Source: Algoriphagus sp. (GTDB taxonomy: Bacteria; Bacteroidota; Bacteroidia; Cytophagales; Cyclobacteriaceae). From it: a stretch of 44,438 nt of DNA. Positions 36,445 to 41,161 of this stretch are shown piece after piece; position 1 is the first letter of the stretch, and each line of letters opens with the position of its first letter. Under the pieces are notes generated by a model. That model did not search any database, was not told the DNA's origin, and was given only the letters and a program-made list of their open reading frames with translations. The stretch lies in assembly GCF_024642405.1 (NCBI RefSeq), contig NZ_JAHEBC010000002.1, positions 1 through 44,438 of the forward strand, given 5' to 3'. The position numbers were made by a program, and so were the translations under genes.

Positions 36445-36801
36445 TTAGACTATTCCAAATCTCCAGGAAATCAAACCTTTTTCAAGGTTTTTCACATTTT
36501 CAAATCCGAGATTTATCATAATTTCGCAAGCTGTTTTACTTCTATTTCCAGATCTACAGTAAACCAAATAGATTTTTTCTTTGGGAAGTTCTTCAACTTG
36601 AATTTTGAAGTCGCTGCGCGAAACATCAATATTTATTGCCCCGGGAATCTTTCCTACTACATACTCCCCAAAAGACCTTACATCTATTAAAACACTATTG
36701 TTAGAAAGGAATAGATCATAAAATGGACCTGAAGGTAGGTTCTCGTAATTCTTAGGAAAGGAATTTGAAGAGTTAATGACTATATTATTTATGGTTTTCA
36801 T
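36445..36801 (-). CDS. Single-domain rhodanese-like protein
   Basis: A 118-residue rhodanese. The active-site loop YCRSGNRSKTA holds Cys82, which carries the persulfide; NSVLIDVRSFGEYVVGKIPG with the conserved VR and the GAINIDV strand completes the fold. Rhodaneses transfer sulfane sulfur, for example from glutathione persulfide or thiosulfate. It starts 28 nt after the stop of the TauE/SafE gene and therefore shares its promoter, which is preceded by a Crp/Fnr-type palindrome. The SQR gene 3 kb away gives its probable sulfur donor. No signal peptide, so it acts in the cytoplasm. Confidence 0.93.
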   Translation of the reverse strand: MKTINNIVINSSNSFPKNYENLPSGPFYDLFLSNNSVLIDVRSFGEYVVGKIPGAINIDVSRSDFKIQVEELPKEKIYLVYCRSGNRSKTACEIMINLGFENVKNLEKGLISWRFGIV

Positions 36802-36829
36802 GTATCATCAATGAATTACTAACCTAGAA

Positions 36830-37636
36830 TTATACAAAAATCAATTCTTTAGAAATAATATAGATTCCCATTGCTAGTACAAACCAACCAAATCCTTTTT
36901 TCAACACTTTATCATTGATTTTTTTAGATAATGCGCTTCCAATAAAAATCCCCACAATAGATAATCCAGTGAAAATTAGTAGCATCATCCAATCAATTGG
37001 TTGATTGGATACATCGCCCAGAAAACCAATAAGCGACTTAGCCGCAATGATCAACAAGGAAGTGCCAACTGCCTTTTTCATAGGTAGTTTGGCTAATAAT
37101 ACTAATGCAGGAATAATCAAAAAACCACCACCTGCACCTACTATCCCTGTCACTAAACCTACGAGCAGTCCCTCTATTGCAATTAAAGGGAAATTGAATT
37201 TTAATTCAGAATCCTCTTTACTTTCATTATTCTTTTTCTCTTTGATCATGGAATATGATGCTGCCAACATGATCAGGGAGAAAAACACCATTATTCCTAC
37301 ACTTTTTGAAACTTCAAATCCTCCTGCTGTGAATAAGGGATCAGGAAGAGCTGGAACAAGAAATTTTCTTGTTAAAAAAACTGCTATAAATGAAGGAATA
37401 GCAAAAACTAAAGCAGTTTTATAGTCAACCAATTGTTTTTTCATGTAAGTAAAAGAACCTACAAGAGAGGTACTACCTACGACGAAAAGTGAATAAGCCG
37501 TCGCTAAAACCGGCTCAACACTTAAAATATATACAAGAACAGGTACAGTAAGAATAGAGCCGCCTCCCCCTATTAGTCCAAGTGATACTCCGATTATTAC
37601 TGCAGCCGCAAATCCTATTAAATTAACTAAGTCCAT
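36830..37636 (-). CDS. TauE/SafE family sulfite/sulfur-compound exporter
   Basis: A 268-residue membrane protein with about eight helices in two halves. Each half starts with the family's Gly-rich motif: GVSLGLIGGGGSILTVPVLV and GLVTGIVGAGGGFLIIPALV, as in TauE/SafE (Pfam PF01925). Members export sulfite, sulfoacetate or thiosulfate-type anions. First gene of the tauE-rhodanese unit. A TACTTTTG box and a GTGAC-N4-GTTAC palindrome precede it (see sites). The link with SQR suggests export of an oxidised sulfur product; this is inferred. Confidence 0.92.
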   Translation of the reverse strand: MDLVNLIGFAAAVIIGVSLGLIGGGGSILTVPVLVYILSVEPVLATAYSLFVVGSTSLVGSFTYMKKQLVDYKTALVFAIPSFIAVFLTRKFLVPALPDPLFTAGGFEVSKSVGIMVFFSLIMLAASYSMIKEKKNNESKEDSELKFNFPLIAIEGLLVGLVTGIVGAGGGFLIIPALVLLAKLPMKKAVGTSLLIIAAKSLIGFLGDVSNQPIDWMMLLIFTGLSIVGIFIGSALSKKINDKVLKKGFGWFVLAMGIYIISKELIFV

Positions 37637-37661
37637 ATTTTTTTATCCATCATTGACATGA

Positions 37662-37669
37662 CAAAAGTA
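37662..37669 (-). promoter_or_regulatory. -7 box of the TauE/SafE-rhodanese unit
   Basis: TACTTTTG on the minus strand, a full TAnnTTTG match 26 nt before the start codon. Its centre is 33.0 nt from the centre of the adjacent palindrome. Confidence 0.65.
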
Positions 37670-37691
37670 CAATTGGAATATGCCGTATGTA

Positions 37692-37705
37692 GTGACAAAA
37701 GTTAC
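37692..37705 (-). promoter_or_regulatory. Crp/Fnr-type operator, TauE side
   Basis: GTGACAAAAGTTAC, centre 37698.5: TGAC-N4-GTTA with one mismatch between half-sites. Placed 33 nt upstream of the -7 box, i.e. close to position -40 relative to the expected start. Confidence 0.6.
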
Positions 37706-37793
37706 ATTTGATTTTAAAAACTAACTCCTTAAACTAAAAACAACTATGACAATTTTAAGAAACTGATAATAATAAAAATTATAGATTCAATCC

Positions 37794-37805
37794 TGATTTA
37801 TATCA
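37794..37805 (+). promoter_or_regulatory. Crp/Fnr-type operator, universal-stress-protein side
   Basis: TGATTTATATCA, a perfect TGAT-N4-ATCA palindrome, centre 37799.5, 54 nt before the start of the Usp gene. The best -7 candidate is GTAATTTG at 37828-37835 (a weak TTTG-type box), 32 nt from the palindrome centre. Confidence 0.6.
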
Positions 37806-37853
37806 TAAATCGGTGAAAACATTTTTTGTAATTTGATTGAAAATTAAACGATC

Positions 37854-38657
37854 ATGAAAATTTTAGTCCCCATTGATTTCTCTGAAAATTCGAAAAAAGC
37901 ATTGGAATTTGCAGTTTCCCTGGCAAAAAGGAAAAATGGATCAATTACTATATTACATGTAATCGAGGCTATTTATGATTTTGCTGCCCAAGCAGCTATC
38001 GTCATAGAAGGAATGCATAAAGATGCGGAATCCTATCTCGATGAATTAGTAACACATTACAAAAAAGAAGACGTTCAGGTGCAAGGAATGATAAAAGATG
38101 GTACAGTTTCAATTATGACTTCTAAAACAGCTGAAGAAATTAATGCAGATCTCATCGTTATAGGTACTCAAGGTTTAACTGGAATCAAGCGTACCTTACT
38201 AGGAAGTACTTCAATCGATGTAATTAAAGCCTCCGAATGTCCTGTTTTACTGATACCTGCCGATGCAAAGGTTAAAAATATAGAGAAAATGACGCTGGCA
38301 TTAGAGTTTTCTGATCATGAAGAGCCTTTTTTAGAAAGGGTAATTAAAATAAGCAAAAGTTGGGAATTGAAAATAGATTTCCTCCACATTGAGATTCGTC
38401 ACAATTTTAAGGAAGAATTAACAGTGCTTGGTCTAGAAGCATATGTTCAAAATAAATATCCTGAACTTGACTCAAAATTAGAAACTTTGAAATCCGAAAA
38501 CTTAATTGATGGTCTGGACAAATACCTTGGAAGAAATAAAAATGTAATATTAGTCATGTGCCATAACCAAAAAAATATTTGGGATCAGATCTTATCCAAG
38601 AGCAAGACAATCCAGATGGCATATCATACCCATGTTCCCTTGTTAATTATGAATTGA
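37854..38657 (+). CDS. Universal stress protein with tandem UspA-like domains
   Basis: A 267-residue cytoplasmic protein. The first domain (1-139) has the ATP-binding UspA signature: MKILVPIDFSENSKKALEFA, the central IGTQGLTGIKRTLLGSTSID with G-x2-G-x9-G-S, and CPVLLIPAD. The second half (about 140-267) repeats the fold in degenerate form, without the glycine loop, ending in CHNQKNIWDQ and THVPLLIMN. Usp proteins bind ATP and modulate stress survival under energy or oxygen limitation. It is preceded by a perfect TGAT-N4-ATCA site and its stop codon abuts the stop of the crp gene, which converges on it. Confidence 0.93.
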   Translation: MKILVPIDFSENSKKALEFAVSLAKRKNGSITILHVIEAIYDFAAQAAIVIEGMHKDAESYLDELVTHYKKEDVQVQGMIKDGTVSIMTSKTAEEINADLIVIGTQGLTGIKRTLLGSTSIDVIKASECPVLLIPADAKVKNIEKMTLALEFSDHEEPFLERVIKISKSWELKIDFLHIEIRHNFKEELTVLGLEAYVQNKYPELDSKLETLKSENLIDGLDKYLGRNKNVILVMCHNQKNIWDQILSKSKTIQMAYHTHVPLLIMN

Positions 38658-39314
38658 TCATTTATTAATCAATTCTTCGAAATCATCCCGAATATAAATC
38701 ACATTTCGGCCTAATTCTATCCATTTCTTTTTTTCAAGTTGTTTTAATAACCTTGATATCACTTCTCGTGAAGTCCCTAACTCATTTGCTATTTCTTGGT
38801 GAGTTGTGTGCAGTTCATTTGCCTTATGCTGCTTCATTTTAGTAACGATATACCGCATCAAACGCTCATCCATTCTTTTAAAAGCTACAGCATCCAATGC
38901 CACCAACATCTCTTGAAATCGGCTTTGATAGGTATTTGAAACAAAATCTTTCCATTGTCTATACTGTTCAGTCCATTGTTCATGGACAGAAACAGGAATC
39001 CCTATTAAAGTAGTTTCTTCCTCAACTATTGCTTTGATTTCACTTGGTTTCGATGCTGAACAGCAGGTTAAAGAAAGTGCGCAGGTCTCCCCTGCATCCA
39101 AGTAGTATAAAAACAATTCTTTACCCTCTTCATCCATTCTCAAAATCTTAATTGATCCTTCCAAGACTATGGGTACCATCTTTATAAATTGCCCTGGTTC
39201 CATTAATATTTTACCTGGAGGCAAATGAAGGATCTGACCTTTATCCAAAATTTCCTGAAGTAATTTTGGGTCGGTAAAATTAGGCAAATAAGATTTAAGC
39301 TCTTCTTGATTCAT
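38658..39314 (-). CDS. Crp/Fnr family transcriptional regulator with a Cys cluster
   Basis: A 218-residue regulator from ATG 39314; a TTG eleven codons upstream is rejected. Residues about 20-115 form the cyclic-nucleotide-binding-type sensor domain, but the cAMP-binding phosphate cassette is absent. Instead, ETCALSLTCCSAS carries Cys78, Cys84 and Cys85 near the start of the expected effector loop. Residues about 145-215 are the DNA-binding domain with helix-turn-helix THQEIANELGTSREVISRLL; Glu184-x-x-Ser187-Arg188 matches the E-xx-SR recognition helix of Fnr, which reads TGA half-sites. No N-terminal Fe-S Cys set of Fnr is present. A TGAT-N4-ATCA palindrome and a TAACTTTG box in front of the gene point to autoregulation. 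Confidence 0.94.
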   Translation of the reverse strand: MNQEELKSYLPNFTDPKLLQEILDKGQILHLPPGKILMEPGQFIKMVPIVLEGSIKILRMDEEGKELFLYYLDAGETCALSLTCCSASKPSEIKAIVEEETTLIGIPVSVHEQWTEQYRQWKDFVSNTYQSRFQEMLVALDAVAFKRMDERLMRYIVTKMKQHKANELHTTHQEIANELGTSREVISRLLKQLEKKKWIELGRNVIYIRDDFEELINK

Positions 39315-39331
39315 ATTAGTCAGTAAAAAAT

Positions 39332-39339
39332 CAAAGTTA
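39332..39339 (-). promoter_or_regulatory. -7 box of the crp/fnr gene
   Basis: TAACTTTG on the minus strand, a full TAnnTTTG match 18 nt before the start codon; centre 33.0 nt from the upstream palindrome. Confidence 0.65.
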
Positions 39340-39361
39340 AGTTTCAATAAAAAGGATATAG

Positions 39362-39375
39362 GTGATTTGCATCAC
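39362..39375 (-). promoter_or_regulatory. Crp/Fnr-type operator, crp gene
   Basis: GTGATTTGCATCAC, a perfect 14-bp palindrome (GTGAT-N4-ATCAC), centre 39368.5. It sits 33 nt upstream of the -7 box and suggests autoregulation. Confidence 0.68.
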
Positions 39376-39832
39376 ATATTGCAAATAAAACCAATCTTTT
39401 TAAGGTACAAAACGCTACCTAAATAATTCTGTTCAAAACAAAGTCCATTCTCATGATATGTTACATGCTAGACAACTGAAGGTATTGAATTCAAAAACCC
39501 TTCTATCTATTTCTATAATTAATTTCTATAAATAACTGAATTTCATATTATTATATTATGGAAGATATGAATTATTTGAAATTCAAGGCGGCAGATAAAA
39601 CTCGTCATTTCTTTAACTATGTATTTGAATAACAGGAAGAAGAGGAAAGCTAAAAATGTCGATTTAATCTTAGTGTTTATTCTTTTTTTGGTATTTAATT
39701 CCAACTTCCTCAAAAAATCAAACAATGAATCTTTTTCATATTGATTCACAATAAAATTTCATAGTAAAATGGCCTTTTAGAAAATCAGGCAAGGAAAGAA
39801 TTGAAACAAAAAAATATAGAGAATTTTCTGTA
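39376..39832. other. AT-rich gap between crp and SQR genes
   Basis: 457 nt without a supported gene. A 68-codon minus-strand frame with a GTG start (39543-39749) and a 24-codon plus-strand frame (39558-39632) are too weak to call. The sequence is very AT-rich and shows no clear hairpin or RNA family. Its length exceeds what two promoters need. Confidence 0.5.
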
Positions 39833-39848
39833 GGTGATAAATGTCACC
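39833..39848 (+). promoter_or_regulatory. Crp/Fnr-type operator, SQR gene
   Basis: GGTGATAAATGTCACC, centre 39840.5, GTGA-N6-TCAC with matching outer bases. TAAATTTC at 39870-39877, a near -7 box, is centred 33.0 nt downstream. Confidence 0.65.
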
Positions 39849-39869
39849 TTTTACTTCCCAAAGTCTTTT

Positions 39870-39877
39870 TAAATTTC
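39870..39877 (+). promoter_or_regulatory. Near -7 box of the SQR gene
   Basis: TAAATTTC, one mismatch (last base) from TAnnTTTG, 21 nt before the start codon. A weak box fits a promoter that needs an activator. Confidence 0.5.
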
Positions 39878-39898
39878 TCAAAATCAAGTTATCAGCAA

Positions 39899-41161
39899 AT
39901 GAACCATTATCAAATACTTATTATCGGAGGAGGAACAGCAGGAATAACTGTTGCAGCTCAACTTAAAAGGAAAGATAAATCCCTTTCAATGGCGATCATA
40001 GAGCCTTCTGAAAAACACTACTATCAACCTGCTTGGACACTGGTTGGTGCAGGCACCTACGATTTTAAAGACACCGAAAGAAATGAGGCTGATTATATAC
40101 CAGATGGAGTGGACTGGTTGAAAGATTATGCCACTGAGATAAATCCTGATTCAAATTCGATTAATACAAAATCTTCAGGTACCATATCTTACGAATACCT
40201 AGTAATCGCACCAGGCTTAGTGATGATGCCTGAATTATTACCAGGATTGCCTGAGGCAATGGAAAAAGGAATTGTTTGTAGCAATTATACTGACCCCGAA
40301 CATACTTGGGAATTACTTCAAAAATTTGAGGGAGGAAATGCAGTTTTCACTCAACCTACCACTCCGATTAAATGTGGTGGAGCACCCCAGAAGATTATGT
40401 ATTTGGCGGAAGAGCATTTCAGGAGAGCTGGTGTCAGAGAGAAAACAAATGTCATTTTCGCGACTCCCGGAACAGTCATATTTGGAGTGCCAGATTTCGC
40501 CAAAACTCTAAATAAAATTATTCATGACCGTGATATTATTTTCAAACCATTTTATGCACCAGTCCGAATTGACCCAGAGAAAAAAGAGATCTTTTTTAGA
40601 TATTCCAAACCTGGGGAAAATGGATGTGTAGTAACCGAAGGAAATAAAATAGGTGAAGAGATCGTCGGTGAATCAGAAATAAAAATTTCTTTTGATTTTC
40701 TTCATTTAGCTCCGCCACAAGGCGCTCCGAAATTCATTAGGGATTCTATAGTATCCATTCAAGATGGAGCCAATAAAGGTTGGATAGATGTCGATATCCA
40801 CACTTTGCAGCACAAAAGATTCTCAAATATATTCTCTCTCGGAGATGTCGCTGCTTTGCCAACTGCAAAAACTGGAGCAGCCATCAGAAAACAAGCACCT
40901 GTAGTGGTAGAAAATCTATTGAAATTGATTCACAGCAACCAGGTAGGTTCTGCATCCTATAATGGGTATTCCTCTTGCCCACTGGTAACAGGATATTCAA
41001 AAATGGTCCTAGCAGAGTTTAAATATGATAATGTCAGAGATAGTGATCCCTTGATTTCAAAATTCGTGGATACCACCAAGGAACAATATTCCATGTGGCT
41101 ACTCAAAAAATATGGGCTGCCCTTTATGTATTGGAATCTAATGCTTAAAGGAAAAGCTTAA
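39899..41161 (+). CDS. Type II sulfide:quinone oxidoreductase-like flavoprotein
   Basis: A 420-residue FAD enzyme of the sulfide:quinone oxidoreductase family. The N-terminal IIGGGTAGITVAAQL binds FAD. The two catalytic cysteines of the type II (mitochondrial SQRDL-like) group are present: Cys159 in PIKCGGAPQKIMYLAEE and Cys360 in SSCPLVTGYSKMVLAEF. The enzyme oxidises sulfide to sulfane sulfur (persulfide) and passes electrons to the quinone pool at the inner membrane. The C-terminal MWLLKKYGLPFMYWNLMLKG would give the amphipathic membrane anchor. It is a single-gene unit under a Crp/Fnr-type palindrome, with a terminator after it. No persulfide dioxygenase gene is within the window, so the fate of the sulfur must rely on the rhodanese or distant genes. 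Confidence 0.94.
   Translation: MNHYQILIIGGGTAGITVAAQLKRKDKSLSMAIIEPSEKHYYQPAWTLVGAGTYDFKDTERNEADYIPDGVDWLKDYATEINPDSNSINTKSSGTISYEYLVIAPGLVMMPELLPGLPEAMEKGIVCSNYTDPEHTWELLQKFEGGNAVFTQPTTPIKCGGAPQKIMYLAEEHFRRAGVREKTNVIFATPGTVIFGVPDFAKTLNKIIHDRDIIFKPFYAPVRIDPEKKEIFFRYSKPGENGCVVTEGNKIGEEIVGESEIKISFDFLHLAPPQGAPKFIRDSIVSIQDGANKGWIDVDIHTLQHKRFSNIFSLGDVAALPTAKTGAAIRKQAPVVVENLLKLIHSNQVGSASYNGYSSCPLVTGYSKMVLAEFKYDNVRDSDPLISKFVDTTKEQYSMWLLKKYGLPFMYWNLMLKGKA

Follow-up and report, generated by a model that had tools for sequence, protein, structure and literature searches.

Sulfide and persulfide sensing has been described for regulators of the ArsR, CsoR and Fis/NtrC types (PMC9774590), and also for OxyR and MarR proteins, and a review names CstR, SqrR/BigR, PigS and FisR as sulfide-sensing regulators (PMC9774590). 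FisR of Cupriavidus, a sigma-54 activator of sulfide oxidation genes, senses reactive sulfur through three conserved cysteines (PMC9774590), and a Crp-like protein with a Cys opposite the ligand pocket was found persulfidated in Acinetobacter baumannii cells exposed to sulfide (PMC7315123). The literature searched, which left most subscription journals and preprints outside its scope, turned up no Crp/Fnr protein that regulates sulfide oxidation in Bacteroidota. Here we describe a Crp/Fnr-family regulator gene (crp) and the promoter sites around it in a 44.4-kb stretch of Algoriphagus sp. DNA (the window; contig C61 of a 4.36-Mb, 509-contig draft assembly, 89% complete), where it lies among genes for a rhodanese, a TauE/SafE-family exporter-like protein (tauE), a universal stress protein (usp) and a sulfide:quinone oxidoreductase (SQR)-like flavoprotein (sqr). 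From its promoters and gene content, this locus is quite probably the core of an autoregulated sulfur-oxidation regulon, switched on by the Crp/Fnr dimer in a class II manner.

The encoded protein belongs to the Crp/Fnr superfamily (PF00027 and PF13545, both above cut-off), and its AlphaFold model (pLDDT 81.8, pTM 0.60) matches CRP-family structures, the best being 4ev0 (E 7.8e-16). It is like Escherichia coli CRP in fold and size, in the R-E of its recognition helix, in GTGA half-sites and in a site centred at -41.5. Unlike CRP, it has a helix motif that ends in S-R instead of G-R, would act at promoters with the Bacteroidota -7 box, and carries C-A-L-S-L-T-C-C in place of the cAMP loop. In CRP, residues of this loop (G-E-L...R-S) take part in cAMP binding; in alignment with CRP, the loop CALSLTCCSASKPSEI has no counterpart of the phosphate-binding Arg, and the protein scored 56.7 bits against the NCBIfam CRP equivalog (cut-off 266), so we do not class it as a CRP. 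FNR, with which it shares E-x-x-S-R, holds a [4Fe-4S] cluster through four Cys and binds TTGAT-N4-ATCAA. Unlike FNR, the regulator has R before E, three Cys only, placed in the effector loop, no N-terminal Cys cluster, sites of the form GTGAy-N4-rTCAC and a score of 26.3 bits against the NCBIfam Fnr model (cut-off 228). The initial annotation had called the helix Fnr-like for its E-xx-SR; the S-R is indeed present, but R-E-V-I-S-R is a hybrid that also has the CRP-type R and E. As R-E is CRP-type and S-R FNR-type, and CRP reads GTGA and FNR TTGAT, this helix fits a GTGA half-site and not the FNR one. Within S-R-E-V-I-S-R, residues R183, E184, S187 and R188 are invariant in 81/81 orthologues, as are Cys 78, 84 and 85, the only cysteines of the protein, which align with the cAMP-binding loop of CRP. 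Three Crp/Fnr proteins were found in this genome by PF13545, and only this one has R-E-x-x-S-R (the others read TATESVIRLL and SSRQTVTKTL). With SqrR/BigR (ArsR) and CstR (CsoR) it would share thiol-based control of sulfide-oxidation or sulfurtransferase/dioxygenase genes, but those are repressors of other folds (PMC9774590, PMC5823870). FisR belongs to an unrelated protein family and uses sigma-54 promoters; the A. baumannii protein has the same fold but is close to E. coli CRP and is not linked there to a sulfur regulon (PMC7315123).

Each of the four transcription units starting here is preceded by a TGA-N6-TCA-like palindrome (Table 1). The four centres reported in the initial annotation were all correct, and so were three TAnnTTTG boxes placed exactly 33.0 nt away (tauE and crp 6/6, sqr 5/6), although the tauE palindrome is imperfect and reads TAA-N6-TCA. 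The plain palindrome is common, with 29 copies in the window; the extended form alone is rare, and the strength of the motif rests on the longer half-site and the spacing. GTRAY-N4-RTYAC occurs in the window only at tauE, crp and sqr, and each of the three copies is followed, exactly 33.0 nt on and on the side of its gene, by a TAnnTTTG box that matches at 5/6 or better (3/6 oriented sites; in the window, the chance rate of a 5/6 or 6/6 box at a given position is 0.0104). GTGAYN4RTCAC has 11 copies in the whole assembly, compared with 3 for the reversed control; two of the 11 are those of crp and sqr, which are separated by 472 bp.

To follow the motif and its 33-nt spacing through related genomes, as the initial annotation had proposed, we searched 145 genomes, 72 of them of the genus, and compared promoters in 80 named loci. 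The nearest named relatives of this draft are Algoriphagus, such as A. lutimaris, whose regulator is 92% identical. The regulator was matched in 112/145 genomes, including 69/72 of the genus (one, G011, at 57% over part of the protein, with internal stops); the three genus genomes without it are incomplete drafts. The motif recurred before the orthologues, and the other targets that could be named were mostly sulfur-oxidation genes. For tauE, site and box were found in 53/53 named loci, with the best box at 33 (19) or 34 (34). The sqr gene had a site within 260 nt in 33/33, with the best box at 33 in 15; in some of the others the site counted may be that of crp, with which sqr shares its intergenic region. 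A full consensus site preceded crp in 65/80 loci; its best boxes, counted per site and with ties included, fell at 33 in 36 entries and at 34 in 18. Among the 18 printed non-Algoriphagus loci, 13 had the crp site, 10 of them with a box of at least 5/6 at 33 or 34, and Mariniradius, three Cyclobacterium and Belliella aquatica lacked it. The rhodanese, second gene of the tauE unit and with no operator of its own seen in the window, had its own site in 29/36 named loci (best box at 33 in 11 and at 34 in 18). In many relatives (e.g. L048) a fatty-acid-hydroxylase-family gene (~292 aa), absent from the window, lies between rhodanese and tauE. The spacing initially described as fixed is thus near-constant, but across species it is 33 or 34, or 32 for a paralogue's target.

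The usp gene is the weakest member of the proposed regulon. Its orthologues carried a TGA-N6-TCA-like site (7/8 letters) 53-58 nt before the start in 22/50 cases. The box initially proposed lies at 32, and the two frames score alike (TAATTTGA at 33 and GTAATTTG at 32, both 4/6); we took 33 as the likelier register because the best box stood at 33 in 22/22 site-bearing orthologues (one tied with 32, two with 36), although a looser scan upstream of usp gave sites in 47/68 with no clear spacing peak.

A scan of the 72 genus genomes for the site plus a perfect box, in which any spacing between 19 and 49 was allowed, returned 114 pairs in 55 genomes, compared with 7 overall for the reversed-pattern control. 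Spacings of 32, 33 and 34 accounted for 13, 37 and 32 pairs (82/114), with none at 31 or 35. We examined 60 of these 82, clustering the downstream genes by BLAST and checking one representative per main cluster against Pfam. In 22 cases the product was persulfide-dioxygenase-like, combining an MBL fold with rhodanese domains; 13 genes encoded a 1-Cys peroxiredoxin, six encoded cytochrome bd subunit I and three a TsdA/SoxA-like dihaem cytochrome c, and the products found once included a thioredoxin and a SoxB-like protein. Six sites lay inside a called open reading frame (ORF), one of them over-extended, and some may be due to chance, such as four in a CusA-like transporter (named by eye). In the Algoriphagus genome that contains the window, 5/22 site orientations had a box of at least 5/6 at exactly 33: those before crp, sqr, the TsdA/SoxA-like gene (on C48) and the SoxB-like gene (on C422), and a fifth in the neighbourhood of an aldehyde dehydrogenase gene. 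Leaving out the crp and sqr sites, 3/18 stood at 33 with about 0.19 expected. The fifth site (G000:C466:55-68, L308), with the box TATACTTG, lies near a contig end, upstream of the aldehyde dehydrogenase-like ORF (named by eye). The compact regulon first proposed is too narrow, with further putative members on other contigs.

The dioxygenase-like, TsdA-like and SoxB-like families were matched in 39, 70 and 41 of the 72 genus genomes, the first with no match in the draft that contains the window. In the 30 loci returned for each family, site and box preceded 25 dioxygenase-like genes (21 at 34 and 4 at 33, two of the latter as an alternative pick, L283/L284), all 30 TsdA-like genes (28 at 33 or 34 and 2 at 23) and 27 SoxB-like genes (18 at 34 and 9 scattered, including the one in this genome). 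We use SoxB-like only, since a 463-aa piece (L306) scored 201.4 bits against TIGR04486 (cut-off 550). As a control, we took the 365 remaining genes of the 80 named loci: a full site combined with a box at 33 preceded 24 of them, and each other spacing was seen in 0-5, with none at 32 or 34. These background matches, which we had expected to be noise, all proved by their N-termini to be SulP sulfate-permease (21) or SoxB-like (3) genes from sister genera; a Pfam check of one of each confirmed SulP and identified the other as a metallophosphatase/5'-nucleotidase-type protein, as SoxB is.

Mapped transcription starts place the sigma-A TAnnTTTG box at -12 to -5 in Flavobacterium psychrophilum (PMC9723704), a relative from a different order. 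The box centre is then -8.5, and a site centred 33.0 nt upstream falls at -41.5, which agrees with the class II placement near -40 in the initial annotation; the four genes would then have leaders of 13-21 nt. With spacings of 33 or 34 and this rule, the operator sits around -41.5 in fixed phase relative to the predicted starts. TTTG occurred in the -33 region of just 10/114 and 10/93 distinct perfect-box promoters, a figure that has no ordinary-promoter set for comparison, so that these promoters look weak without help. An operator in place of the -33 element, the rarity of TTTG there and the tight spacing together make class II activation, and not repression, likely.

On the observed sites, spacing, conservation, gene content and helix we base the following proposal. 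The dimer encoded at 38658-39314 would bind GTGAy-N4-rTCAC (variant GTAAC-N4-RTCAC), centred at about -41.5 (or -42.5), cover the place of the Bacteroidota -33 element and touch RNA polymerase in class II style. It would switch on its own gene, sqr and the tauE-rhodanese unit, usp more weakly and, elsewhere in the genome, the TsdA/SoxA-like cytochrome c and the SoxB-like enzyme, a set that would oxidise sulfide and thiosulfate and export the product. Direct binding of these sites by the neighbour-encoded regulator is well supported by comparative evidence. As its signal the regulator probably senses something derived from sulfide (persulfide, other sulfane sulfur or thiol redox), which would be read by the three invariant cysteines in the loop that binds cAMP in CRP. 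A sulfur species acting through these cysteines is our first choice because most targets are inorganic-sulfur genes, and the alignment of the cysteines with the cAMP loop suggests a thiol sensor. If correct, the proposal would name the sulfur-oxidation regulator of Algoriphagus and its relatives, allow targets to be found in draft genomes by a near-fixed-spacing motif, and offer a clean test of class II activation on a TAnnTTTG promoter.

Several observations count against this proposal. A site at -41.5 could serve a repressor too, and orthologous promoters are not independent of each other. No site was found in 15/80 crp promoters, 28/50 usp promoters and 5/30 dioxygenase-like promoters, the last all from small drafts; only 18/30 SoxB-like promoters show the spacing of 34, and in that of the SoxB-like gene in this genome another box, at 25, matches just as well. 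The motif is shared with a paralogous Crp (40-45% identical, in 14/72 genus genomes), which uses it upstream of genes for cytochrome bd and a peroxiredoxin. As for the cysteines, the loop (residues 81-88) is modelled below pLDDT 50, and we claim no inter-cysteine distances. Among 44 homologues that are 31-65% identical, all retain Cys 78 and 25 retain the CC pair, the latter being 20/24 nearer but 5/20 farther homologues; the pair also persists where the queries used detected no sulfur gene within ~3 kb (e.g. L396, L397, L404, L408).

Unlikely, but the strongest of the alternatives, is a real regulon with another signal, oxygen, nitric oxide or general redox, in which the sulfur genes would form part of a micro-oxic response. 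The Usp in the cluster and the paralogue's targets, cytochrome bd and a peroxiredoxin, would suit this reading, and three cysteines could serve as ligands of a metal or a cluster; however, most of the targets found are inorganic-sulfur genes, and just three Cys, all in one loop, differ from the four of FNR. We give a distinctly lower probability to the same regulator acting on the same sites as a repressor at -41.5, released by oxidised or persulfidated cysteines as in SqrR/BigR and CstR. The comparative evidence for the sites is compatible with this as well, and the sulfide sensors SqrR/BigR and CstR are repressors (PMC9774590). Against it, sharp spacing, with no pairs at 31 or 35, is expected for polymerase contact and less so for occlusion, and the missing -33 TTTG leaves the promoters looking weak without help. 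In the Crp/Fnr family, moreover, -41.5 is the textbook position of a class II activator.

It is improbable that the sites belong to another Crp/Fnr protein or to a general cAMP-type regulator, with the neighbouring crp gene as a bystander. The geometry is indeed general in the order, with 43/91 site-box pairs outside the genus at 33, and the paralogue has the same motif beside its own targets; but the two other Crp/Fnr proteins of this genome have different helices, the crp site also occurs where a genome has only one match to the regulator, as in G017, G043, G008 and the one studied here, and in homologues the helix fits the operator. Palindromes arising by chance in AT-rich intergenic DNA, which the abundance of plain TGA-N6-TCA might suggest, are a negligible explanation, as the extended sites are rare, oriented, exactly spaced and conserved, and conservation refutes chance for crp, sqr and tauE, and least firmly for usp.

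The agreement of helix and operator was followed in 44 distant loci, where a site was counted if it lay no more than 700 bp from the regulator and had a box of at least 4/6 at 32-34. Beside regulators with the R-E helix, 18 loci had GTGA or mixed sites, one had GTAA and eight had none; beside those with R-V, the numbers were 0, 6 and 11. In the same order, the first 24 loci, from which the idea came, gave 12, 0 and 7 for R-E and 0, 4 and 1 for R-V, and the next 20 gave 6, 1 and 1 and 0, 2 and 10. The glutamate of CRP reads the very base pair that changes between GTGA and GTAA. Across the order, the spacings of GTAAC-N4-GTTAC likewise peak at 33 (27/54), and an unbiased palindrome scan of 22 distant loci gave eight matches, five at 33. 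In distant homologues, the change from E to V goes with that from GTGA to GTAA, in too few independent changes to test. The pairing has its own difficulties: the regulator tree holds about three helix changes, two with site data, so that a paired test cannot reach significance, and three of the later 20 loci were included because a GTAA site stood alongside. Moreover, V in place of E, predicted beside three GTAAC...GTTAC sites, was right for L450 and L456 and wrong for L451, where a regulator with R-E stands next to a symmetric GTAAC-N4-GTTAC that has its perfect box at 33; this is the sole exception to the rule.

A wider reading, which we hold only tentatively, is that of a Cytophagales Crp/Fnr lineage in which a C-x5-CC thiol sensor of sulfide-derived sulfane sulfur replaces the cAMP pocket, the one-residue E/V switch sets GTGA or GTAA, and the regulator is a main activator of inorganic-sulfur oxidation (sqr, dioxygenase-like, TauE, SulP, TsdA-like and SoxB-like targets). 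The recount of CC pairs in distant homologues slightly lowered the probability we assign to it. A TauE homologue was present in 7 of the first 24 distant loci, and the genes that directly follow the regulator and are preceded by a site whose box lies at 33 included those for SulP, small rhodaneses and YgaP-like membrane proteins.

In the window, the rhodanese gene and tauE lie on the minus strand, usp on the plus, crp on the minus and sqr on the plus, with the usp stop codon (38657) abutting that of crp (38658). The crp ATG is conserved and orthologue starts agree; a start at TTG 39347 was rejected, as it lies upstream of the predicted transcript start. The sqr product had NF049943 (SQR type III seleno) as its best match, at 237.6 bits compared with a cut-off of 525, and we call it type III-like and not a member.

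Table 1. Genes, putative operators and predicted -7 boxes at the crp locus of the window. Operator sequences are written in the direction of their gene.
Feature	Position	Strand	Sequence or match	Remarks
Rhodanese, single-domain	36445..36801	-	Pfam PF00581, E 1.4e-17	gene 2 of tauE unit, 28 bp past tauE
TauE/SafE-family exporter-like protein (tauE)	36830..37636	-	Pfam PF01925, E 3.4e-48	
tauE -7 box	37662..37669	-	TACTTTTG, 6/6	centre 37665.5; predicted start ~37657
tauE operator	37692..37705	-	GTAACTTTTGTCAC	centre 37698.5; 33 from box
usp operator, weak	37793..37806	+	CTGATTTATATCAT	centre 37799.5
Probable usp -7 box	37829..37836	+	TAATTTGA, 4/6	33 from operator; register taken from orthologues
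Universal stress protein (usp)	37854..38657	+	Pfam PF00582, E 4.5e-33	
Crp/Fnr-family regulator (crp), 218 aa	38658..39314	-	helix SREVISRLL; Cys 78, 84, 85	ATG at 39314
crp -7 box	39332..39339	-	TAACTTTG, 6/6	centre 39335.5; predicted start ~39327
crp operator	39362..39375	-	GTGATGCAAATCAC	centre 39368.5; putative autoregulation
sqr operator	39834..39847	+	GTGATAAATGTCAC	centre 39840.5
sqr -7 box	39870..39877	+	TAAATTTC, 5/6	centre 39873.5; predicted start ~39882
Sulfide:quinone oxidoreductase-like flavoprotein (type III-like; sqr)	39899..41161	+	NCBIfam NF049943 best match; Pfam Pyr_redox_2	

Other occurrences of the motif were recorded alongside. The paralogous Crp gene is divergent from cytochrome bd genes, with the motif at spacing 32 (G047:C1, G068:C1, G045:C8 and others; L142, L157, L403), and the 1-Cys peroxiredoxin gene ~3-9 kb from the paralogue has it at 33. 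Around 5 kb from the TsdA-like gene of this genome lies a gene for a different MBL-rhodanese protein (473 aa; G000:C48, L298), and just past it is a GTGAC site with no box at 33. In one other family of the order, GTGAC-type sites whose box lies at exactly 33 come in groups of two or three spread over ~1-4 kb (G223:C1, G266:C3, G283:C47, G242:C17, G277:C1).

The genus scan also contained a second spacing group, at 21-22 (16 pairs), which is a different element: a GTGATCGTAATCAC-like sequence followed by ATACGTATATTTG (G063:C7:81193-81238, G049:C54, G027:C11, G020:C1, G036:C1, G016:C1 and others). This spacing-21 control element was once found on both strands of one place. Finally, FNR-like TTGATN4ATCAA palindromes numbered 45 in the assembly, compared with 4 for the reversed control, and may belong to some other factor.

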